Origin: Chitinophaga vietnamensis
Lineage (GTDB): Bacteria > Bacteroidota > Bacteroidia > Chitinophagales > Chitinophagaceae
Assembly (NCBI RefSeq): GCF_902167635.1
Contig: NZ_CABHMS010000005.1
Location: 62,001 to 126,000 of the forward strand
Direction of reading: 5' to 3'
Length of the DNA stretch: 64,000 bases
Numbering within the stretch: position 1 is the stretch's first letter; every line of letters starts with the position of its first letter. The notes under the pieces are model-generated. The model had not been told where the DNA came from, did no database searches, and was given only the letters and a program-made list of their open reading frames with translations. The translations under genes and the position numbers were made by a program. Below, one piece after another: positions 10,668 through 29,595 of the stretch.

Positions 10668-12839
10668 GTGCGTATAATTCCACGTTTATTATGCTGCCTG
10701 CTGGCCCTTCCTGCCATGGCGCAGAAAAAAAATGAATCCTTCAAACTGCCCATCCGCAGGGCCATTTCACCGATCAAAATAGACGGAGTAATGGATGAAG
10801 CAGCCTGGCAAGAAGCCGCAGTAGCTACCGATTTCCACATGGTATTACCAATGGATACCAGCAAAGCCCGCCTGCGCACGGATGTGCGCATGACCTACGA
10901 CCAACACCATCTCTACATATTTGTAGAAAACTATACCGCCGGCGAAGGGCCTTACATGGTGGAATCATTGCGCAGAGATTTCGCCTTCCTGAAAAATGAT
11001 AACTTCATCTTCTTCATGGACCCCTTCGATGACCAGACCAACGGCTTCTCTTTCGGCGCCAACGCCGCCGGCGCACAATGGGACGGCCTTATGTACGATG
11101 GCGGAAAAGTAGACCTCAGCTGGGATAACAAATGGACATCTATCGTGAAGAATTACGATGGCAAATGGGTGTTTGAAGCAGCCATCCCTTTTAAGACCAT
11201 CCGTTATAAAAAAGGGATCAAAAGCTGGGGCATCAACTTCAGCCGCAATGATCTCAAAACAACAGAGAAATCAGCCTGGGCGCCCGTGCCACGGCAGTTC
11301 CCAACTGCCTCGCTGGCCTACACCGGCACGCTGGAATGGGACTCCGCGCCACCGCCCGCAGGACCCAATATCTCCATTATCCCTTACCTGCTCGGCGGAG
11401 TATCCAAAGATTTCGTGAAGGGCGACAAAGCCTCCTGGCGCCGCGATGCAGGCCTCGACGCTAAAATAGCCGTTACCTCTTCTCTCAATCTTGATCTCAC
11501 CGTGAACCCCGACTTCTCACAAGTAGATGTGGACAAGCAAGTCACCAACCTCGATCGCTTTGAATTATTTTTCCCGGAGAAAAGACAGTTCTTCCTCGAA
11601 AACGGCGACCAGTTCTCTAATTTCGGCTACAGTACCATCCGGCCATTCTTCTCACGCCGTATCGGTTTGGGAGCGCCTATTCATTTCGGTGCACGCCTCA
11701 GCGGGAAACTCAATAAAGACTGGCGCCTCGGTGTGATGAACATGCAAACAGGCGCGAAGAGCGAGATTGGCCTTCCCGCGCAGAACTTTACTGTGGCGGC
11801 TTTGCAGCGACGCATGTTCTCCCGGTCCAATCTCGGTTTTATCTTCATCAACAAAGAATCTGTCAACTACGATCCCGCAAAAGTGGTGGACCAGCCCATA
11901 TATTCACGCTATAACCGCAACATGGGACTGGAATACAACCTGGCATCGTCCAACAATTTCTGGACAGGAAAAGCGCTCTTCCTGAAATCGTATAGCCCTG
12001 GCAAAAGCGGCCATGATATGGTGCATGCCGCCAACCTCCAATACACGAGCAAGGTCTGGAACATTGGCTGGGCGCATGAATACGTAGGACGTAACTATAA
12101 TGCAGAAGTAGGATATGTGCCGCGGCAGGGATATATTAAAATGGCGCCGCAGGCTACCAGGCTGTTCTTCCCGCTGTCGGGGCCCGTGTTGAGCCATGGC
12201 CCGCAGCTCACCACCACCTGGTTCTTCAATGAAAATTTCCATCGTACAGATAATGAAACCATGCTGAACTATGGCATCGTTTTCCGCAAACGTAATACAT
12301 TGAACATCTGGGCATCCAATACCTATATCCGGCTGCTGCAGAAATTTGATCCTACCAATACGGGGAAAGATAGTCTGGCCGTGGGTTCGCAGCATAACTG
12401 GAATACCGTGGGACTGGACTATGTATCGAAACCGCAAAGCCTTTTCACCTATGCTTTCTCTGCGCGCTATGGCGGTTATTACGACGATGGCCATCGCCTG
12501 ATGCTCAACACAGACCTCGGATACCGCTTCCAGCCTTATGTGAGCATCGCGCTGAGCGCGAATTACAATAAAATCAATCTCCCTGAACCCTGGGGCAACA
12601 ACTCTTTCTGGCTCGTAGGCCCACGCCTCGATGTAACGATGACCAATACCCTGTTTTTCACCGGCTTCCTGCAATATAACGAGCAACAGAAGAACATGAA
12701 CGTGAACACCCGCTTCCAGTGGCGTTACCGGCCGGCGTCGGATCTTTTTATCGTGTACACCGATAACTATCTGCCCGAGCCTTTTTACGTGAAAAATCGT
12801 GCATTGGTAATAAAACTGGTATATTGGCTGAACATTTAA
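10668..12839 (+). CDS. CBM9-like / DUF5916 outer-membrane protein
   Basis: From GTG 10668 the protein is 723 residues with a clean signal peptide (MRIIPRLLCCLLALPAMAQ). A TTG at 10650 would only add six residues. Domain order: carbohydrate-binding CBM9/DOMON-like beta-sandwich (IDGVMDEAAWQEAA, then strands to about residue 200), followed by the DUF5916 region, rich in alternating aromatic strands (FSQVDVDKQVTNLDRFELFF, FFSRRIGLG) and ending in an aromatic-terminated strand (LVIKLVYWLNI), as outer-membrane beta-barrels do. Such proteins are common in Bacteroidota; a role in outer-membrane binding or uptake is inferred, not shown. It is 12 bases upstream of the 7TM-fusion gene, so the two are probably cotranscribed. 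Confidence 0.8.
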   Translation: MRIIPRLLCCLLALPAMAQKKNESFKLPIRRAISPIKIDGVMDEAAWQEAAVATDFHMVLPMDTSKARLRTDVRMTYDQHHLYIFVENYTAGEGPYMVESLRRDFAFLKNDNFIFFMDPFDDQTNGFSFGANAAGAQWDGLMYDGGKVDLSWDNKWTSIVKNYDGKWVFEAAIPFKTIRYKKGIKSWGINFSRNDLKTTEKSAWAPVPRQFPTASLAYTGTLEWDSAPPPAGPNISIIPYLLGGVSKDFVKGDKASWRRDAGLDAKIAVTSSLNLDLTVNPDFSQVDVDKQVTNLDRFELFFPEKRQFFLENGDQFSNFGYSTIRPFFSRRIGLGAPIHFGARLSGKLNKDWRLGVMNMQTGAKSEIGLPAQNFTVAALQRRMFSRSNLGFIFINKESVNYDPAKVVDQPIYSRYNRNMGLEYNLASSNNFWTGKALFLKSYSPGKSGHDMVHAANLQYTSKVWNIGWAHEYVGRNYNAEVGYVPRQGYIKMAPQATRLFFPLSGPVLSHGPQLTTTWFFNENFHRTDNETMLNYGIVFRKRNTLNIWASNTYIRLLQKFDPTNTGKDSLAVGSQHNWNTVGLDYVSKPQSLFTYAFSARYGGYYDDGHRLMLNTDLGYRFQPYVSIALSANYNKINLPEPWGNNSFWLVGPRLDVTMTNTLFFTGFLQYNEQQKNMNVNTRFQWRYRPASDLFIVYTDNYLPEPFYVKNRALVIKLVYWLNI

Positions 12840-12851
12840 TGTTCCGGTGTT

Positions 12852-14738
12852 GTGAAAAATATAACCAGCTTGCTATGCCTGCTGCTGTGGATGTGTGGCA
12901 GGACCTATGCTCAACAGGTAGTAAAGATCGACAGTGCTGTAAATGAGCATATATTTACTTACGGAGAGATCGATTACCTGGAAGATCCCACAGGGAAACT
13001 GAGCTTCGGCCAGGTGCGCAGCATCCCGTATGATACCCTGTTCCGGGCCAATAACCGCAGCACCCCGCAAAATGAAAATCTCGGCAGCACTTATTGGTAC
13101 CGCGTGCGGGTACAGCATAACAGCGCCGTGCAGCAACATTATATCCTCGAATTTTTTGATCAGACGATCGATCACATCACCGCCTGGATGCCCGACAGTT
13201 TGGGGCATTACCATGCCATTCAAACCGGCGACGATTTCATTTTCAGCCGCAGGCTCTTTGCCCACAAGAATTTCGAGCTGCCGGTAGATAATAATCACAA
13301 CAAGGAAAGCGTGTATTATTTCCGCGTCTACTCCCGGCAAACAGCTGATGTGATCATCGTATTGCGCTCCGTGAACCGCTTTGTAGGATATGCGCTCAGC
13401 GAATATTTTTCGTTCGGGCTGTTCTATGGCATGATCCTCATTTTCAGCTTTTACAACCTGATCATGTTCATCGCCATGCGGCAGCGACAATACCTGTATT
13501 ATGTATTGTATAACCTGAGCGTGGCCTTGTACGAAATGTGTACCGATGGTATTGCTTACCAGTACCTGTGGCCGCATTCGCCCGCCTGGAACCAGTATGC
13601 CTATGCAGTGCCGCTGTGCGGCATGAGCATATTTGCACTGTTGTTTACCCGCAAGCTGCTGAACGTAAAGGTGCGGGCGCCTTTGCTCAACAAGCTGATT
13701 GTAGGCATCATCATCGCCAGGATAGCATGGTTTATCATTTGTGCAGTGGCGGACCCTTTCCTGTTCACTTACAAGTTCATAGAGGTGATACCCTTGGCAG
13801 TGGCCTTTTACACAGGTATTTACACCTGGGCGCGCGGCTACCGGCCGGCCCGTTTCTTTGTGCTGGGCTACAGTTTCCTCTTCATTGGCTTTATGCTGAA
13901 ATTCTTTATCATGCTGGGTTACGAATGGCTCAACTTCGGCGTTATCAGTTATTACAGTCTGAGTTTCTGTTTCATTTTGGAGATGTTCTTTTTATCATTT
14001 GCGGTGGGAGACAAGGTGAGATGGATGAAGCGCCAGAAAGACAAAGTACAGCGGCAGATGATGCGGCAGATGATAGAAAATGCGCGACTGAAAGATACGC
14101 TGAATAAAGAACTGGAAACGCTGGTGCAGCAACGTACCCGTGAGTTGTCCGAACAATCCGCGCTGGTGGCTTCGCGCAATGAGGAACTGTTGCAGGCCAA
14201 CGAATTATTGCAGCAACAGGCCGAAGAGATATCGCGCATGAATGCCTTGCTGGAGCAGGATAACAAGCAGCTCACCACCAATGTGGAAAAGGTGTCGAGG
14301 GCAAGGGCCTTGTCGGCGCCGGTAGACTTCGAAGAATTTTCCAAAACCTATCCCGATAAAGAAAGTTGCTTCCGGTTCCTCGCCGATCTGAAGTGGAATG
14401 AAGGATATAGCTGCCGCAAATGCAGCAATGAACAGTATTTCAACGGGCATCAGCCTTTGAGCCGCCGTTGTACCAAATGTGGTTATGAAGAGTCGGTGAC
14501 GGCCAACACCATCTTTCAGAACAGCCATATCCCTATTACCAAGGCCTTTTACATGACCTATCTCGTGTATTCCTCCAAGGGAAAGATCTCTTCGCATAAG
14601 CTGTCGGATATGGTGGATATCCGGCAAAGCACCTGCTGGAGCTATGCCAGCCGCATCACAAAGATGATGGCCGAACGGCAGAAAGAGCTGAAGCAAGGGC
14701 AGGGTGGCTGGAGCCGCCTGGTGCTCATTAAAGATTGA
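12852..14738 (+). CDS. 7TM-DISM sensor fused to IS1595-type zinc-ribbon/HTH DNA-binding domain
   Basis: 628 residues from a GTG start. Seen in order: signal peptide (1-20); periplasmic 7TMR-DISMED2-like sensor (~30-172); seven hydrophobic segments of a 7TMR-DISM membrane block (~183-386); a long coiled coil (~392-482); then a C-terminal module (~495-610) with a CXXC...CXXC zinc ribbon (C521, C524, C540, C543) and an HTH stretch (KISSHKLSDMVDIRQST). That C-terminal module matches the N-terminal part of IS1595-family transposases (Zn_Tnp_IS1595: TIF..S..P..K.F...YL...KG.SS..L). There is no histidine kinase, cyclase or DDE nuclease domain. The layout suggests a membrane-bound transcription factor or a domesticated transposase module; the signal and target are unknown. 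Expressed with the upstream CBM9/DUF5916 gene. Confidence 0.85.
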   Translation: MKNITSLLCLLLWMCGRTYAQQVVKIDSAVNEHIFTYGEIDYLEDPTGKLSFGQVRSIPYDTLFRANNRSTPQNENLGSTYWYRVRVQHNSAVQQHYILEFFDQTIDHITAWMPDSLGHYHAIQTGDDFIFSRRLFAHKNFELPVDNNHNKESVYYFRVYSRQTADVIIVLRSVNRFVGYALSEYFSFGLFYGMILIFSFYNLIMFIAMRQRQYLYYVLYNLSVALYEMCTDGIAYQYLWPHSPAWNQYAYAVPLCGMSIFALLFTRKLLNVKVRAPLLNKLIVGIIIARIAWFIICAVADPFLFTYKFIEVIPLAVAFYTGIYTWARGYRPARFFVLGYSFLFIGFMLKFFIMLGYEWLNFGVISYYSLSFCFILEMFFLSFAVGDKVRWMKRQKDKVQRQMMRQMIENARLKDTLNKELETLVQQRTRELSEQSALVASRNEELLQANELLQQQAEEISRMNALLEQDNKQLTTNVEKVSRARALSAPVDFEEFSKTYPDKESCFRFLADLKWNEGYSCRKCSNEQYFNGHQPLSRRCTKCGYEESVTANTIFQNSHIPITKAFYMTYLVYSSKGKISSHKLSDMVDIRQSTCWSYASRITKMMAERQKELKQGQGGWSRLVLIKD

Positions 14739-22856: not shown

Positions 22857-24236
22857 CTACCACGCCAGTGTGACCACCGCGTGTTCTTCCAAGCGGTACT
22901 GAAATACGGCCTTGCCTGCTTGTACCGTAAACGACACAGCCGTATCAGCTTTGTTCAGCGCCACCAGCACCTTACCGCCATCCCGGTTCAGGAAGGCCAC
23001 GCTTTCCAGCGGGGCATCATTCCTGCTCTGGATACGGTAAGCGCCGGGCCGCACGAACTTTGAAAAATGTGCGATCACGTAGTACTCTACGTTACGCAGG
23101 GTGCTATCGCCCCGCAGCGTCAGCACACCCCGGCAATTGCTACAGCCGCGGTTCTGCGGGCCATGTGCTGCATCCAGCGCAAGATTCCACAGCAGCGCAC
23201 TTTTAGACCAGTTGTTCATCGTACCAATGAAAATATTGGAGATATTCCATTGAAGATTATCGCTGAAATTCCTGGCCCACTCGCCACCGGAAATCTCGGT
23301 GAAATGCAGCTCCTTGGCCGGATAGGCATCGTGCACGCGACTCATCGCGCTCACATCGCCGGCATAGGCATGAAAAGCGCTGCCTGCCACGTAACCCGCT
23401 GCCTGCGGGTCGTTCAGGATAGTGAGAGGGTATTGGGGCTCATCCCAATTATGATCATAAGCAATAATTTTCGTGTGTATCTTTTCCCGGCGGAACAAAG
23501 GCCCGAGATGATCCCGGATAAATACCGCCTGCTCCGCAGCCTCCATGCGCATAGACGGATAGGCCGCTTCATGCAGCGGCTCATTCTGCACCGTCACTGC
23601 ATCTACATGGATACCTTCCGCCGCCAGCGCCCGCAGGTATTTTACGAAGTAATGCGCATAGGCCTCATACCATTGCGGGTCCAGCTTGCCGCCGGCCAGG
23701 CGGCCATTGGTTTTCATCCAGGCGGGCGCACTCCAGGGCGTTGCCATGATACGCAGGCCCGGCGCCACTTCCAGGATCTCCTTTAATACCGGTATCACAT
23801 CCTGCCGGTCGTCGCCCAGCGAAAACCGCTTCAGCTGCGGGTCCTGGCTGCCGGCAGGCAGATCGTCGTACGTATAATCGCGGAGCGAAAAATCCGATGC
23901 ACCCATCGTAATGCGCAGGTAACTGATGCCGATACCGCGCGCCGGATCGAAAAGCTCTCTCAGCAAAGCTTTTCTCCGCGCGGGTTCCAGCTGATGGATC
24001 AGCCAGGCCGACGACCCCGTGAGCGCCGCCCCGAAACCGCTCACTTCCTGCAAGCGGCGGCTCGTATCTATACTGATCATCCCCTGCGAACCAGGGTACA
24101 TCGGGATGTCCGCATCCCGATGCAATAATTTGCTACCCTTTCCATTGGTGACCCATACGCTCACCTTGTGCGGCAAACGGGTCAGCGGCGCGGCCATGAG
24201 CGCCATTATTATCAATACCTTGAACACATTCATCAT
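22857..24236 (-). CDS. GH30 family glycoside hydrolase
   Basis: 459 residues from the ATG at 24236; a longer frame would overlap susD by 60 bases and lacks a signal sequence at its start. From 24236 the N-terminus MMNVFKVLIIMALMAAP is a signal peptide. Landmarks: SGFGAALTGSSAW near residue 66, WSAPAWMKTNG near residue 168, acid/base E219 in TVQNEPLHE, and nucleophile E314 in HFTEISGGEW. GH30 subfamilies of this kind include beta-glucosylceramidase and endo-beta-1,6-glucanase; in Bacteroidota loci with a SusC/D pair the latter is frequent, so fungal beta-1,6-glucan is the favoured but unproved substrate. Last gene of a three-gene operon, 17 bases after susD. Confidence 0.9.
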   Translation of the reverse strand: MMNVFKVLIIMALMAAPLTRLPHKVSVWVTNGKGSKLLHRDADIPMYPGSQGMISIDTSRRLQEVSGFGAALTGSSAWLIHQLEPARRKALLRELFDPARGIGISYLRITMGASDFSLRDYTYDDLPAGSQDPQLKRFSLGDDRQDVIPVLKEILEVAPGLRIMATPWSAPAWMKTNGRLAGGKLDPQWYEAYAHYFVKYLRALAAEGIHVDAVTVQNEPLHEAAYPSMRMEAAEQAVFIRDHLGPLFRREKIHTKIIAYDHNWDEPQYPLTILNDPQAAGYVAGSAFHAYAGDVSAMSRVHDAYPAKELHFTEISGGEWARNFSDNLQWNISNIFIGTMNNWSKSALLWNLALDAAHGPQNRGCSNCRGVLTLRGDSTLRNVEYYVIAHFSKFVRPGAYRIQSRNDAPLESVAFLNRDGGKVLVALNKADTAVSFTVQAGKAVFQYRLEEHAVVTLAW

Positions 24237-24253
24237 CCACTGTTTTGCTACGA

Positions 24254-25729
24254 TCAATACCCGGGGTTCTGTGTCAGACTCGGGTTGAGGTCCATCTCGC
24301 CCTGTGGAACTGGCCACAGCAGCTTGTTTTCATTCAGCTTGTAACCGAGGTTGTTACCGTTGCCATCTTTTACAGCCTGCATCACAGGGATGGCCTGGTT
24401 GGTACGCAACAGGTCGAACCAGCGCTGTCCTTCGAAAGCCAGTTCCAGCCTGCGTTCCAGCGCAATGGCATTGCGAAGGTCGCTCTGGCTGGTGGCCGTA
24501 GTAGGCGCCAGGTGTGCGCGGCTACGGATCTGGTTCACCAGCACAGCGGCGCCGGCGGCATCGCCCAGCTCATTGAGCGCCTCTGCCTTCAGGAGCAACA
24601 CATCCGCGAGACGGTACATGATAATATGTTGCGTGCCATCAGTTTTGCGCATCTTGTAGAAGAAAGGAAATTTATTGACATCCAGGTATTTGTCTGCCCA
24701 CTTGCCATTCACATTCATGAAAGTGATGGTGGAAGCCTTTCTCACGGCATCGCCTGCATCATCGTATGCTTTCAGCATATCATTGGAAGGATTGCAGAAT
24801 TTTTTCCAGTCGTCGCCGAGGAACATGCTGGTGCCCCAGTTACCACCGGTTTCCCAACCGGCGAAGTTCAGTTCAAAGATCGCTTCGGAAGAATTGAGAT
24901 GGTTGTTATCCCACAGCTGCTCGAACTCAGGCAGCAAAGCATATCCCAGGGCTATCACTTTGTCGCAGTTCTCTTTCACTTTGGCCCAGTCGTGAGGATT
25001 GTACGCAGCATACACTTTTGCCAGCAGGGTATATACTACGCCGGGCGTTACATAGCCTTTGTTCTGTGCGCTGGAAGGCACGGTGGTGGCGGCATCGCTG
25101 AGGTCCTGTATGATCTGTTTGTACACAGAGTCAACAGTAGTACGGGCGGGATATAATTGAGGATAAATCTGGGAGATGTTATCCGGTGTGATGGCCGGGA
25201 ACTCGTAGGTGATCAGTGGCACGGGGCCGAAGATGCGCACCAGGTCGAAGAATGCGCGGGCGCGTAATGTTTTGGCCTCGCCAATCATCTGGCTTTTGCG
25301 GGCCTGCGTGAGTGCTGGATCTGTTACCTTGGGCACATTCAGGATCACGGCATTGCAACGCGCAATGTGATTGTAAAGATAGCCCCAGTCGCGCTTCACC
25401 CATTCGTTGGTAGAAACGATGCGGAACTCATCGATCTGGAAACCGTTTACGTTGTCAGCGCCTACATAGGCATTGTCTGACTGTGAGTCGCCATTGTTAA
25501 AATAGTCCAGTACATAATATTCCGCGCCATCGTTCTTGAAGAAAGAGTAGCAGGCCGACATCGCGCTTTCGGCTGTGGCGGCGTCTTTGATGAAGGAGCC
25601 GGCGCTACCCGCGCCATTGCCGCCGCTGATCGTATTGGAGATAGGCTTCAGGTCCAGCTGCTTCTGGCAGGAGGCGCCAGCGATGAGCATTATTCCAAGT
25701 ATAAATAAATGTGTTTTTTTCATGGCCAT
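24254..25729 (-). CDS. SusD/RagB-type surface glycan-binding lipoprotein
   Basis: 491 residues with a lipoprotein signal: MKKTHLFILGIMLIAGASC, Cys in lipobox AGASC, then QKQLDLKP. The SusD alpha-helical TPR-like fold is recognisable from ARCNAVILNVP, AKTLRARAFFDLVRIFGPVPL, and the C-terminal block ALERRLELAFEGQRWFDLLR, LLWPVPQGEMDLNPSLTQNPGY. It caps the SusC channel on the outer face and presents oligosaccharide for import. Six bases after susC, translationally close, and 17 bases before GH30. The binding specificity cannot be told from sequence. Confidence 0.95.
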   Translation of the reverse strand: MAMKKTHLFILGIMLIAGASCQKQLDLKPISNTISGGNGAGSAGSFIKDAATAESAMSACYSFFKNDGAEYYVLDYFNNGDSQSDNAYVGADNVNGFQIDEFRIVSTNEWVKRDWGYLYNHIARCNAVILNVPKVTDPALTQARKSQMIGEAKTLRARAFFDLVRIFGPVPLITYEFPAITPDNISQIYPQLYPARTTVDSVYKQIIQDLSDAATTVPSSAQNKGYVTPGVVYTLLAKVYAAYNPHDWAKVKENCDKVIALGYALLPEFEQLWDNNHLNSSEAIFELNFAGWETGGNWGTSMFLGDDWKKFCNPSNDMLKAYDDAGDAVRKASTITFMNVNGKWADKYLDVNKFPFFYKMRKTDGTQHIIMYRLADVLLLKAEALNELGDAAGAAVLVNQIRSRAHLAPTTATSQSDLRNAIALERRLELAFEGQRWFDLLRTNQAIPVMQAVKDGNGNNLGYKLNENKLLWPVPQGEMDLNPSLTQNPGY

Positions 25730-25735
25730 CAGGAT

Positions 25736-28708
25736 TTAGAATTGAAGATTTAAACCAGCAATGAACGATCTGGCCTGTGGATAAGTGCCATAATCGATGC
25801 CCAGCGTAGCGCCGTTGTTATTTACCTTGTCGGGATTAGCGGCGGCATTGAAGGCATTCACTTCCGGATCAAAGCCTTTGTATTTGGTGATGGTGAAGAT
25901 ATTGGTAGCGGTTACATACACAGAGAGCTTTGTGAGCTTGATGTGTGAAATAAGCTCCTGTGGCAGGTTATAGGAGAGCGTGATACTCTTCATGCGCAGG
26001 TAGGAACCGTTTTCCACAAAGCGGCTGCTGGTGAGCGAGTTGGTCACATCCTGCAGGGTGGCCTTTGGGATATCGGTCACCTGTCCGGGTTTGGTCCATC
26101 TTCTCAGCACATCTGTGCTTTGGTTTTTACTATCATACATCCCTTCTGTTTCCATACGGGATGCATTGAATACATCATTGCCTTGTGAGCCTTGCAGCAG
26201 GAACGACAGGCCCCAGTTACGGAAGCGCAGGTCGTTGTTCATGCCGTAGGTAAACCTGGGCTGCGCGCAACCGATCACGGTGCGGTCCTGCGGGGTGATC
26301 ACGCCATCGCCATTCACGTCTTTGTATTTGATATTACCTGTTTGCGGATCCACACCTTCAGAGATGTAGCCATAGAAAGTGCCCAGCGCTACGCCTTTCT
26401 TCAGGATGATAATGTTATCGCGTCCTTCCACACCGCCAAAGTAATACACCGGGCTGAGCTGCATATCGGTGATACGGTTACGGTTAAACGAAATGTTGAA
26501 ATCCGTATGCCAGGTGAATTGTTTGGTGTCCATGTTCACAGAAGATACTGTGAACTCAAGGCCCTTGTTCTCCATCGCGCCGAAGTTGCCAGGCATATAT
26601 TGCACATTGGCGATCTTGGGCACGGGCACGTTCAGCAGCAGGTCCCTGGTTTGCTTGAGGTAAGCATCAGCGCTCACCGTCAGGCGGGAGTTAAAGAGGC
26701 TGATATCGATGCCCACATTGGTTTGTGTAGTGGTTTCCCAGGTCAGGTTGGGATTGGGGATATAGGAAGGGATCACGATATCCGGGCCCGACAAAGGATT
26801 GGTAGGCGTGCGTTGCTTATAGGTATTAAGACCATAGGCGGAGTAGTTGTCCAGTCCTTCCTGGTTGCCATTCTGGCCCCATCCGGCGCGGATCTTCAGG
26901 TCGTTGATCACGCGCACATCTTTCATGAAAGGTTCCGCGGAGATACGCCAGCCGGCAGAGAAGGAGGGGAAGTAACCCCACTGGTGACCTGGCGCCAGCT
27001 TGGAAGAGCCATCGGCCCTGAAGTTGGCGGTGAACAGGTATTTGCTATCGTAGTTATACATCACGCGGCTGATGTACGACATCAGGAACCAGGCTGATTC
27101 TTCGGTGAAACCGGTGAGCTGGTTGGCGGCATTCAATGTTTTCACGGTAGGGTCGTCGGGGAAGTCGCGGCCGTTCATCGTGGAAATATTGTATTTGTTC
27201 TGCTGGGTGGTGATGCCCGCCATGGCAGATACATTGTGCTTTTTCCAGCTATGGTCGTAGGTGAAATAGTTTTCCAGCAGGTAAGTGAAGCTGTTGGATT
27301 TATCCGAATTGCCGATACCATGGTCATTGCGGCCAGGGGTGGTGGAGAAGGCATCGAGGTAATAATCGTACTTGTGGTTGAAGTAATCGATACCGAAATT
27401 GGATTTGAACTTCAGGCCTTTGTACAAGGTAAGTTCGCCACTAACGTTACCGAATATACGATTATCAGTGGTGTTTTGAGTGGGCCCGTCGATGGCGGCC
27501 AGCGGGTTATCCCAGCCGGCTTTGTAGAGATTGCTGGTATAGCGGTTGCGGCCCAGCGAGTCTTTCTCAAAGATGCCCATGGTGGGCGGCGCGTTCAGAG
27601 CGCCAAGGATGGCGGCATTGCGCATGGCGTTGCCATTGTCTTTCACATCTTTCGAATTCACATTGGAATAGCTGATGTTGGTGCTGAGCTTGAACCATGA
27701 TTTCACCTGGTTGTCGAGGTTCACGCGGAAAGCGTAACGGTTATAGGCGGCAGGCTTCACGATCCCGTCGTCGCGGGTGATATTGCCGGACACATAATAT
27801 TGTGATTGTGCATTGCCGCCGGAAAAGGCCAGCTGGTAATTCTGGTTATGCCCCGTTTTAAAAACTTCTTTGAGCCAGTCGGTGGTAGTGGTGGCGGGTT
27901 GCACGTTATAGCCCAGTTCCTTCATCAGGTCGTTGTACTGGGAGGGATTGAGCACATTTATTTTCTTCGCGAGATTGGAAACGCCGTAATAAGTATTAAA
28001 GGAGATGACCGGCATACTTTCCTTTCCTCTTTTGGTGGTGATGATCACCACGCCGTTGGCGGCACGGGCGCCGTAAATGGCGGCAGAGGAAGCATCTTTC
28101 AATACCTGTATGCTGGCGATGTCGTTGACGTTCAGGTCGCGGGTATCCATAGTTGGCACTCCGTCGATCACATAGAGCGGCTCATTGCCGGCCTGTACGG
28201 AGGTGGCGCCACGTACGCGGATGGAGAAGGCCGTGCCGGGCTTGCCGCTGGGCTGCGTTACCTGTACGCCTGCTGCCTTACCCTGAAGGGCGCCTGCTGT
28301 TTGCACGATGGGGCGCTCTTCAATGTCTTTGGTGTTTACACTCACCACTGCGGTGGTGAGGTCTTTCTTTTTCTGCGTACCATAACCTACTACCACTACT
28401 TCATCGAGGTGGGAGTTACTATCATTCAGGGTGATGTTGATGGCGCTGCGGCCGCTCACAGCCACTTCCTGGCTGCTGAAGCCGATGTAGGAAAATACCA
28501 GTACAGCATCGGGCGCTACATTGATGCTGAACACGCCGTTATTGTCGGCGGTAACGCCCTGAGTCGCTCCTTTTACATGGACAGACACACCTGGTAGCGG
28601 GGTGCCATGACTGTCCCTGATCGTTCCCTGCACACGGGTTTGCTGCTGGGCAAATGCCAGGGCACAACATACAAGCAGGAACATGGTGAGTAAAAATCGT
28701 TTTTTCAT
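25736..28708 (-). CDS. SusC/RagA-type TonB-dependent outer-membrane transporter
   Basis: 990 residues. Signal peptide (FLLTMFLLVCCALAFA), CarboxypepD_reg-like N-terminal domain (~22-105; GTIRDSHGTPLPGVSVHV), TonB box region (LDEVVVVGYGTQKKKDLT ~113-130), plug (~118-225; SIRVRGATSVQAGNEPLYVIDG and AIYGARAANGVVIITTKRG) and a long beta-barrel ending in aromatic F (ARSFIAGLNLQF). It imports oligosaccharides using TonB energy. No STN domain is present, so it is not the sigma/anti-sigma coupled type. First gene of SusC-SusD-GH30, with a good promoter about 80-115 bases upstream and no adjacent HTCS, sigma or AraC regulator. Confidence 0.96.
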   Translation of the reverse strand: MKKRFLLTMFLLVCCALAFAQQQTRVQGTIRDSHGTPLPGVSVHVKGATQGVTADNNGVFSINVAPDAVLVFSYIGFSSQEVAVSGRSAINITLNDSNSHLDEVVVVGYGTQKKKDLTTAVVSVNTKDIEERPIVQTAGALQGKAAGVQVTQPSGKPGTAFSIRVRGATSVQAGNEPLYVIDGVPTMDTRDLNVNDIASIQVLKDASSAAIYGARAANGVVIITTKRGKESMPVISFNTYYGVSNLAKKINVLNPSQYNDLMKELGYNVQPATTTTDWLKEVFKTGHNQNYQLAFSGGNAQSQYYVSGNITRDDGIVKPAAYNRYAFRVNLDNQVKSWFKLSTNISYSNVNSKDVKDNGNAMRNAAILGALNAPPTMGIFEKDSLGRNRYTSNLYKAGWDNPLAAIDGPTQNTTDNRIFGNVSGELTLYKGLKFKSNFGIDYFNHKYDYYLDAFSTTPGRNDHGIGNSDKSNSFTYLLENYFTYDHSWKKHNVSAMAGITTQQNKYNISTMNGRDFPDDPTVKTLNAANQLTGFTEESAWFLMSYISRVMYNYDSKYLFTANFRADGSSKLAPGHQWGYFPSFSAGWRISAEPFMKDVRVINDLKIRAGWGQNGNQEGLDNYSAYGLNTYKQRTPTNPLSGPDIVIPSYIPNPNLTWETTTQTNVGIDISLFNSRLTVSADAYLKQTRDLLLNVPVPKIANVQYMPGNFGAMENKGLEFTVSSVNMDTKQFTWHTDFNISFNRNRITDMQLSPVYYFGGVEGRDNIIILKKGVALGTFYGYISEGVDPQTGNIKYKDVNGDGVITPQDRTVIGCAQPRFTYGMNNDLRFRNWGLSFLLQGSQGNDVFNASRMETEGMYDSKNQSTDVLRRWTKPGQVTDIPKATLQDVTNSLTSSRFVENGSYLRMKSITLSYNLPQELISHIKLTKLSVYVTATNIFTITKYKGFDPEVNAFNAAANPDKVNNNGATLGIDYGTYPQARSFIAGLNLQF

Positions 28709-28791: not shown

Positions 28792-28824
28792 TAAAGTTAA
28801 TGGGAAAAACAGGTATCTTGCAAA
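28792..28824 (-). promoter_or_regulatory. Promoter of the SusC-SusD-GH30 operon
   Basis: On the minus strand TTTG (28821-28824), 21 bases, then TAACTTTA (28792-28799; one base off TAnnTTTG). Predicted leader about 75 bases to the susC start. Confidence 0.6.
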
Positions 28825-29595
28825 TAAATTTTCTCACAACTAATTGATAATTAATTGATTGTGATAAAAATGATACGCTTGTTTACCATTCCTTCCGGGC
28901 ATATGGAAGCCTTTGCCATGCCGGAATTTTGTCATGAAAAAAGGGCTTGGGAGAGAGAGGTCTGATACGCTTTGTTACCCGCAAAAAAAGTCCGCATCAG
29001 TAGACACTGTGCGGCACCATTAGCTGGATGATGTTAGAATCAAAAACCCATCCTGCCAAATTCAATGATATCTTTATGAAAAATAATCAACCCAAAATCT
29101 GATCTGGTTACAAAGAATTTAACCAGCTACCTGGAAAGGTGGCCGGGACCTCTATCATGATGTTTTGTACTTTGTATGCATTCCGTTTTTCTCAACGCGA
29201 TGTAGTTATGGTGTAATATTAAGGAGGAGCTGGAAAAGAATAGATGGGTGGAGATGATAGGAAGATGGATTAACAAATGGTCTTTCCGGATGAGACCGGC
29301 AAAAAAAAGACCCTTGCTGAAGCCATCAGCAAGGGCCGGAAAACATTCACATGCTATCCCCGGCATAGGACAGCCGCAGGATGTGCTGTATTCAAATTGT
29401 AGCCTACTATTATCTTGAAATAAATTATTTCGATTGAATCAGTAACGAAATTAAAGTTTCCATTCCGGATAATTAGTTAACTGCTGGTTAATGTGGCCAT
29501 TATACAATTTTCCCTTTCCCTGATATCTTTTTTCTAAGGGCTTGGACATGCCGCAGCTTATCGCTACTTTTTATGGACCGCTAGTAATAAAAAGT
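28825..29595. other. Long intergenic region between divergent operons
   Basis: About 770 bases. The 28825-29300 part is AT-rich with no gene or structure I can support. A minus-strand terminator lies at 29311-29335 (listed separately). A 79-codon minus frame at 29127-29366 runs straight through that terminator and is not believed. TATCTTTT near 29522, one base off the -7 consensus, may serve the GH29 gene at 29596. Confidence 0.5.
29302..29335 (-). terminator. Orphan minus-strand intrinsic terminator
   Basis: CCCTTGCTGA (29311-29320) pairs with TCAGCAAGGG (29326-29335) around a 5-base loop. On the minus strand it is followed by TCTTTTTTTT (down to about 29302). No minus-strand gene ends here, so it may end a short untranslated RNA. 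Confidence 0.7.

Follow-up and report, generated by a model that had tools for sequence, protein, structure and literature searches.

A receptor joined to an IS1595-type DNA-binding module is a predicted membrane-tethered regulator of beta-glucan loci in Bacteroidia

Introduction

Three types of regulator are described for the polysaccharide loci of Bacteroides, namely SusR-like proteins, hybrid two-component systems and ECF sigma/anti-sigma pairs (PMC3878776). SusR-like regulators are presented there as membrane proteins with a periplasmic sensor and a cytoplasmic DNA-binding end; SusR activates sus operons, and its predicted direct repeats lie unusually far apart, at 67 or 77 bp (PMC3878776). 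SusR3/BT3309 is described as lying together with predicted glycosyl hydrolases of unknown specificity. An ECF-sigma/anti-sigma pair is reported from a polysaccharide locus of Chitinophaga pinensis (PMC10449523).

Among the 7TMR-DISM receptors, DISMED2-type extracytoplasmic domains are predicted carbohydrate binders (PMC6107284), and for the one in NicD a link to direct carbohydrate binding has been made (PMC8544897). Signalling coiled coils are described as occasionally joined to HTH domains (PMC1592074). ChiS is described as sensing chitin and directly regulating a sugar-uptake operon. The DNA-binding domain of its family offers one precedent for a 7TMR-DISM receptor joined to such a domain (PMC8092284). 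A search of one open library for work on 7TMR-DISM and on domesticated or captured transposases returned, in the portions of text available there, no report of the fusion analysed here.

Results

The fusion gene occupies positions 12852..14738 on the plus strand of the window, by which we mean the whole 64,000-nucleotide stretch of Chitinophaga vietnamensis DNA that was analysed. It is a single open frame of 628 aa with a GTG start, and its parts, all on the plus strand, follow one another without interruption of the frame. A 7TMR-DISMED2 periplasmic sensor domain (residues 39-171, 12966..13364; Pfam PF07696, E 1.4e-27, 96.7 bits against a curated cut-off of 22) precedes a 7TMR-DISM_7TM membrane domain (residues 184-388, 13401..14015; PF07695, E 1.5e-45, 156.1 bits against a cut-off of 29). 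A coiled-coil linker with approximate boundaries (about residues 395-485, 14034..14306), drawn from weak coiled-coil-type profile matches only, leads to a zinc ribbon of the IS1595 type with ligands C521, C524, C540 and C543 (residues 502-545, 14355..14486; PF12760) and to an HTH placed by NCBIfam NF033547 and by alignments (residues 557-612, 14520..14687). A sequence-only reading of this DNA had described the gene in these terms, as a 7TMR-DISM sensor ending in a CXXC/CXXC zinc ribbon and an HTH with no nuclease domain, and our searches bear this out.

The IS1595 zinc ribbon that this reading had placed in the C-terminal part was recovered by profile search, at E 3.4e-4 and 21 bits at the protein level, below the 25.4-bit cut-off, and at 26.7 bits at the DNA level, above it. 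The HTH matched positions 1-57 of the 215 in NF033547, an IS1595 transposase model, with 27.1 bits, below that model's cut-off of 75, and contains the segment RQSTCW at residues 591-596. The four cysteines are invariant across 42 aligned fusions. Neither the window protein nor three divergent fusions that we scanned, in which DISMED2, 7TM and zinc ribbon were present, matched the DDE domain (PF12762); both stand-alone relatives scanned carried Zn_ribbon_IS1595 followed by DDE_Tnp_IS1595. Pfam and NCBIfam searches found no kinase, receiver, AraC, sigma or anti-sigma domain in the window protein, and no PDB entry matched the window protein or a profile of the module at better than E 0.36. After the HTH stands a short tail, GWSRLV (14706-14723), and the match to the IS1595 model stops before its W620. 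This tryptophan is invariant in 20 aligned fusions and nearly invariant in 42.

We surveyed genomes for proteins with the same plan, as the sequence-only reading had suggested. Apart from the window protein, 71 further distinct proteins were found in Chitinophaga, Mucilaginibacter and other Bacteroidia. Within the genus, a module match occurred in 40/79 genomes and the fusion, counted by frame length and score, in 31/79, of which 26 carry the window's own fusion clade. The family scan found the fusion in 14/394 genomes, all at 223 bits or more, with transposases at 128.2 bits or less. The class-level scan (E at most 1e-22) yielded 16/395 genomes with the fusion, their family codes being f13, f16, f41 and f50 besides f1; here the scores overlapped, diverged fusions reaching down to 115.6 bits and transposases up to 140.5. 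A phylum scan of 395 genomes at the same threshold found no fusion outside the class, and when 50 class genomes were scanned for the Pfam zinc ribbon, the window's frame alone exceeded 600 aa. The matches listed (L071 onward) fall into two kinds, those that align with the window sensor and shorter proteins or fragments of transposase type that lack it.

A frameshift, an assembly join between a 7TM gene and a transposase remnant, or absence from all relatives would have pointed to an artefact. A contig scan returned 47 pattern-matching stretches, and all 34 loci confirmed from it, in Chitinophaga, Mucilaginibacter and a few other Bacteroidota, encode full-length fusions. With 34/34 loci full-length and the fusion in 31/79 genus genomes, neither a frameshift nor an assembly join can account for it; a pseudogene is excluded too, the loci being full-length and under purifying selection. 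A few scan rows had an internal stop within the match, and the frames fetched from those genomes are open to the end. The fusion is thus confirmed as a genuine single gene.

We examined the ancestry of the two halves separately. The nearest sensor relative in the same genome (L002; 26% identity, E 5.5e-44) consists of DISMED2, 7TM and a histidine kinase. In a sensor-only scan of 147 family genomes, the best nine matches, at 337 bits or more, came from the genomes with the fusion, and the next, at 132.5 bits, was a longer frame of kinase type by its kinase motif. A tree of 24 chosen fusions and 16 kinase-type sensors (15 of them flagged as kinases by motif) placed the fusions in one clade with support 100/100. 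In a first sensor tree with very long branches, a kinase paralogue had fallen among the fusions; this placement disappeared when the tree was rebuilt with the 16 kinase-type sensors. For the module, 71 fusions separated from 28 transposases with support 98/50 in a tree that rests on 139 columns and whose transposases were found with the module itself (121 matches reduced to 99 rows by leaving out those with fewer than 95 aligned residues or identical modules). The split fits one capture, and the window module is 37-43% identical to eight stand-alone transposases aligned with it. The likely source of the module is an IS1595-family transposase, with probably a single capture event.

Estimates of dN/dS from four pairs, one value being undefined in each set, were 0.024, 0.035 and 0.028 for the module and 0.060, 0.129 and 0.047 for the sensor, at dS of 0.9-1.9, which is near saturation. 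These values indicate strong purifying selection on the module.

The genes around the fusion point to a polysaccharide locus. A SusC, SusD, GH30, GH5 or GH16 relative was present in the flank of 69/71 distinct fusion loci (SusC 41, SusD 41, GH30 49, GH5 19, GH16 18), as judged with reference proteins taken from the window and from some of the same 71 loci; the fetched flanks of L037 and L145 held none of the five. In 40 control regions from 14 genomes, each of about 17 kb and so of similar size to the loci, any of these families occurred in five (SusC 4, SusD 2, GH5 1, GH30 0, GH16 0). In the window the predicted target operon runs from 22857 to 28708 on the strand opposite to the fusion gene and consists of a SusC-like TonB-dependent receptor as first gene (25736..28708, minus strand; Pfam Plug and CarbopepD_reg_2), a SusD-like protein (24254..25729, minus strand; SusD_RagB and SusD-like_3) and a GH30 glycoside hydrolase (22857..24317, minus strand; Glyco_hydro_30). 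The best solved relative of the GH30 protein is 5ngk (E 1e-89), which we take to be the Bacteroides beta-1,6-glucanase BT3312. In the Mucilaginibacter locus L016, the GH16 protein matches laminarinases and endo-1,3-beta-glucanases, and the best matches of the GH5 protein are to a putative beta-xylosidase and an endoglucanase, followed by exo-1,3-beta-glucanases. From these relatives we infer, for this soil bacterium, a locus for the beta-1,6/1,3-glucan of fungal cell walls. The L016 GH30 (11122-12990) and GH16 (13059-14468) proteins also share a C-terminal domain that matches DUF7910 below cut-off, as well as 7zoi/7zoh, PDB entries whose deposition describes a portion of a GH18 protein.

CBM9/DUF5916 and GH20 genes neighbour the fusion in the window genome, the DUF5916 gene ending 13 bases before it. 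The CBM9/DUF5916 protein had been put forward as a ligand-binding partner of the sensor. Relatives of CBM9/DUF5916 and GH20 occur in the flank of 0/71 loci elsewhere, and we discarded both as functional partners; SusC/SusD and GH30, GH5 or GH16 recur in their place. The proposal of a membrane-bound regulator made from part of a transposase therefore stands as a conserved unit with a candidate site upstream of nearby operons, and loses its CBM9/DUF5916 link.

Two copies of AAGCGTATCA became apparent on aligning the gaps between the fusion gene and SusC. In the window this conserved pair of candidate operators, with a distal copy at 28963..28972 and a proximal copy at 28871..28880, 92 bp from the distal one (both minus strand), precedes SusC, 14 kb from the fusion gene. 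A candidate -7 promoter box, TAACTTTA (28792..28799, minus strand), starts 72 bases past the proximal site. It belongs to the type TAnnTTT[GA], which we take to be the -7 promoter form of Bacteroidota. Over 41 loci the fuller site reads G[GT][TG]A-n3-AAGCGTATCA, and the two sites are direct repeats 86-93 bp apart. Of these 41 loci, 34 have a TAnnTTT[GA] box that starts 71-72 bases beyond the proximal site (next commonest offset: 3), the 41 including L140, inside coding sequence, and L143, a weak match before the fusion gene, both of which probably arose by chance. The pair precedes SusC in Chitinophaga loci and GH30 in several Mucilaginibacter loci, and is therefore not simply conserved with one neighbour.

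The pair (86-93 bp apart, at most three mismatches in all) was found in 35/72 distinct 1-kb regions, compared with at most one region for any of up to 200 shuffled patterns; because motif and spacing were derived from these very loci, which are related, the counts are descriptive and the shuffles do not capture the effect of that choice. Half-overlapping control windows gave 0/897 before the fusion gene and 0/2344 on the opposite strand, and control DNA gave one pair, with three mismatches, on 80 strands of 17 kb. The class scan and genome G818 provide checks outside the loci that defined the motif. In the class scan the exact pair occurred in 3/395 genomes (G000, G106 and G778), all with the fusion; two pairs lie directly behind the fusion gene and that of the window genome before SusC, 14 kb off. 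A reversed-pattern control gave none among the matches listed, and the exact form was absent from the other 13 of the 16 fusion genomes of that scan. In G818 the fusion is last in its locus. The start of the SusC-SusD-GH16 series there was fetched after the motif had been set, and it held the predicted pair before SusC, 89 bp apart with one mismatch.

Across the genus, 18/79 genomes had matches to a shorter exact pattern, 21 in all, of which 15 lie behind the fusion gene or, in the window genome, before SusC, and six elsewhere. The pair stood at the expected place in 15/26 genomes with the window's fusion clade, and any pair occurred in 2/48 genomes without the fusion. A second shorter-pattern match in the window genome (C2:766616) was rejected because it fails the full 10-base motif, and two single exact sites sit in coding frames. 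Of the 72 regions, 37 had no pair within 1 kb. Three of these (L017, L022 and L033) have it beyond 1 kb. In eight (L018 and L023-L029) the operon start is outside the locus; in G818, probably the genome of L026, the fetched start holds the pair. Of the ten regions L150-L159, seven have a variant pair before GH30 and three do not. A lone core is present in L143, L147 and L162, and no pair was found in L015 and L030. The last 11 come from the families f13, f50 and f16, where a de novo search for spaced repeats found nothing; its positive control likewise gave nothing, so the search carries no evidence either way. Separately, a third exact AAGCGTATCA copy was seen on the opposite strand in L016 (at 10381), L017 (10437), L022 (10803) and L033 (10512), 368-531 bp before the pair and inside a small open frame.

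We compared the segment within the candidate recognition helix with the putative site. Ten loci (L150-L159), which form a second fusion clade in Chitinophaga, have the helix RQGTCW and lie close to a convergent GH30 gene of the kind that bears DUF7910. In seven of them a variant of the pair, AAGTGTATTA, with its copies 88-89 bp apart, stands on the GH30 side, upstream of that gene; three are without it. Where the standard pair is lacking, AG[CT]GTAT was found behind the fusion gene in 7/8 loci with RQ[SG]TCW and in L136, which has RQATSW. By group, it occurs in 2/3 loci of f13 (RQSTCW), 3/3 of f50 (RQGTCW twice, RQATSW once) and 3/3 of L143, L147 and L162 (RQSTCW), and in 0/5 loci of f16, where the helices read GTNTVW, RRNTIW, RKNTIW or otherwise. 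As aligned here, candidate helix and candidate site vary together.

The ends of IS1595-type elements were also compared with the site. Element ends with 8-bp target duplications were found in 3/49 loci. Four elements of one group (L173, L174, L193 and L194) have GGTATA[AG]GCGTTTA at both ends, which resembles the operator GGTA-n3-AAGCGTATCA with an inter-box gap two bases shorter. Shuffle p values were 0.010-0.012 for L193, 0.045-0.072 for L173, L174 and L194, and 0.08-0.94 for the ends of the other elements tried; because several groups were tried, the resemblance is not significant. Seven further transposases with a TCW helix (L182, L183, L184, L185, L191, L195 and L204) lacked the two-ended box; L182 has one single box match, L195 is cut by its contig, and in many loci of that scan the helix was missed by the pattern. 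The likeness is at most a lead towards operators derived from transposon ends. A bolder account, a bacterial counterpart of transposase capture, in which a sugar receptor took over the end-binding domain of a transposase, its glucan-locus operators still resemble IS1595 ends (GGTA-n-AAGCGT), and a fourth class of membrane regulator arose and spread among the polysaccharide loci of Bacteroidia, is one we hold tentatively and at less than even odds.

Discussion

We propose, with a probability of roughly 0.8, that the fusion acts on a beta-glucan locus as a one-component, membrane-tethered activator whose DNA-binding domain was captured from an IS1595 transposase. At the level of sequence, this reading draws on the architecture, the grouping of each half into one clade, the purifying selection, the gene partners that recur and a site pair tied to fusion genomes. 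Glucan fragments imported through SusC/SusD would reach the periplasm and be sensed by DISMED2; that the ligand is a glucan fragment is suggested by the neighbouring genes. The 7TM domain and coiled coil would relay the change to the cytoplasm and rearrange the C-terminal modules. Two or more zinc-ribbon/HTH modules, the copy number being our deduction, would then bind the two bipartite sites about 90 bp apart and, if the sign of regulation is activation as we expect, raise transcription from the SusC-SusD-GH30 promoter. The long spacing of the sites fits a membrane-tethered dimer. In this protein the module would have taken the place of the histidine kinase found in the nearest relatives.

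The best-surviving alternative has the fusion regulating the locus while another factor binds the AAGCGTATCA pair, the module acting by contact with RNA polymerase or with that factor. Zinc ribbons can bind protein, W620 could serve as a contact surface, being conserved in the fusions, and DNA binding by the module is itself a prediction. However, the class genomes with the exact pair all carry the fusion, one of them with a target 14 kb away, the core of the site goes with the recognition helix, and the module retains a transposase HTH with its RQ.TCW segment. We regard this alternative as improbable. Slightly less probable still is that the module binds the same sites as a repressor released by ligand. 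A fixed distance to the -7-like box would fit either sign, but the sites lie about 70 and about 160 bases upstream of that box and not over it, a placement usual for activators. SusR, the nearest analogue in working, is moreover described as an activator (PMC3878776). A recent or non-functional read-through from a receptor gene into a transposase remnant would explain the homology of the C-terminal part to IS1595 transposases and is scarcely credible, given an intact fusion in tens of species of several families, a module dN/dS of about 0.03 and invariant zinc ligands.

If the proposed activator is confirmed, it would add a further type to the three regulator types of Bacteroides polysaccharide loci, and would be a clear bacterial case of a transposase DNA-binding domain turned into the output of a receptor. 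The analysis also provides a candidate operator and a promoter geometry that can be tested directly, and a candidate sugar ligand for the receptor.

In its working, the fusion most resembles the SusR-like regulators (SusR and SusR2-4): both are membrane one-component proteins encoded beside SusC/SusD with long-spaced direct repeats as predicted sites, described as 67 or 77 bp apart for the former as against 86-93 bp for the fusion. The likeness is one of working only. The DUF6377 proteins, presumably the SusR family, combine TPR-like repeats with a single membrane helix, and a sequence relation to the fusion was not found: the module profile matched none of nine DUF6377-model proteins (eight above cut-off, one weak), and blastp gave E values of at least 0.77. 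The window's own genome encodes one DUF6377 protein (L270, C8:79290-80009), with TPR-like repeats, one membrane helix and a C-terminal end that looks HTH-like by eye; it is perhaps a regulator, as a distinct membrane protein.

The 7TMR-DISM receptors share DISMED2 and 7TM with the fusion, as its kinase paralogue L002 illustrates, and have an enzyme output (histidine kinase, GGDEF and others) where the fusion has a zinc ribbon and HTH. Proteins with the ChiS-family DNA-binding domain likewise carry it C-terminally on sensors, one architecture including 7TMR-DISM (PMC8092284). That domain is described as a cryptic HTH of proteobacteria, and the available text of the source mentions neither a zinc ribbon nor a transposase origin, unlike what we propose for the fusion. 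IS1595 transposases have the zinc ribbon and HTH in the same order as the fusion, together with DDE_Tnp_IS1595, whereas the fusion lacks that domain, is joined to a receptor and has a conserved W620 tail beyond the part that matches the transposase model. SETMAR and ZBED6 are eukaryotic and come from other transposon families; they are described as transposon-derived DNA-binding proteins reused for host regulation, as the module of the fusion would be.
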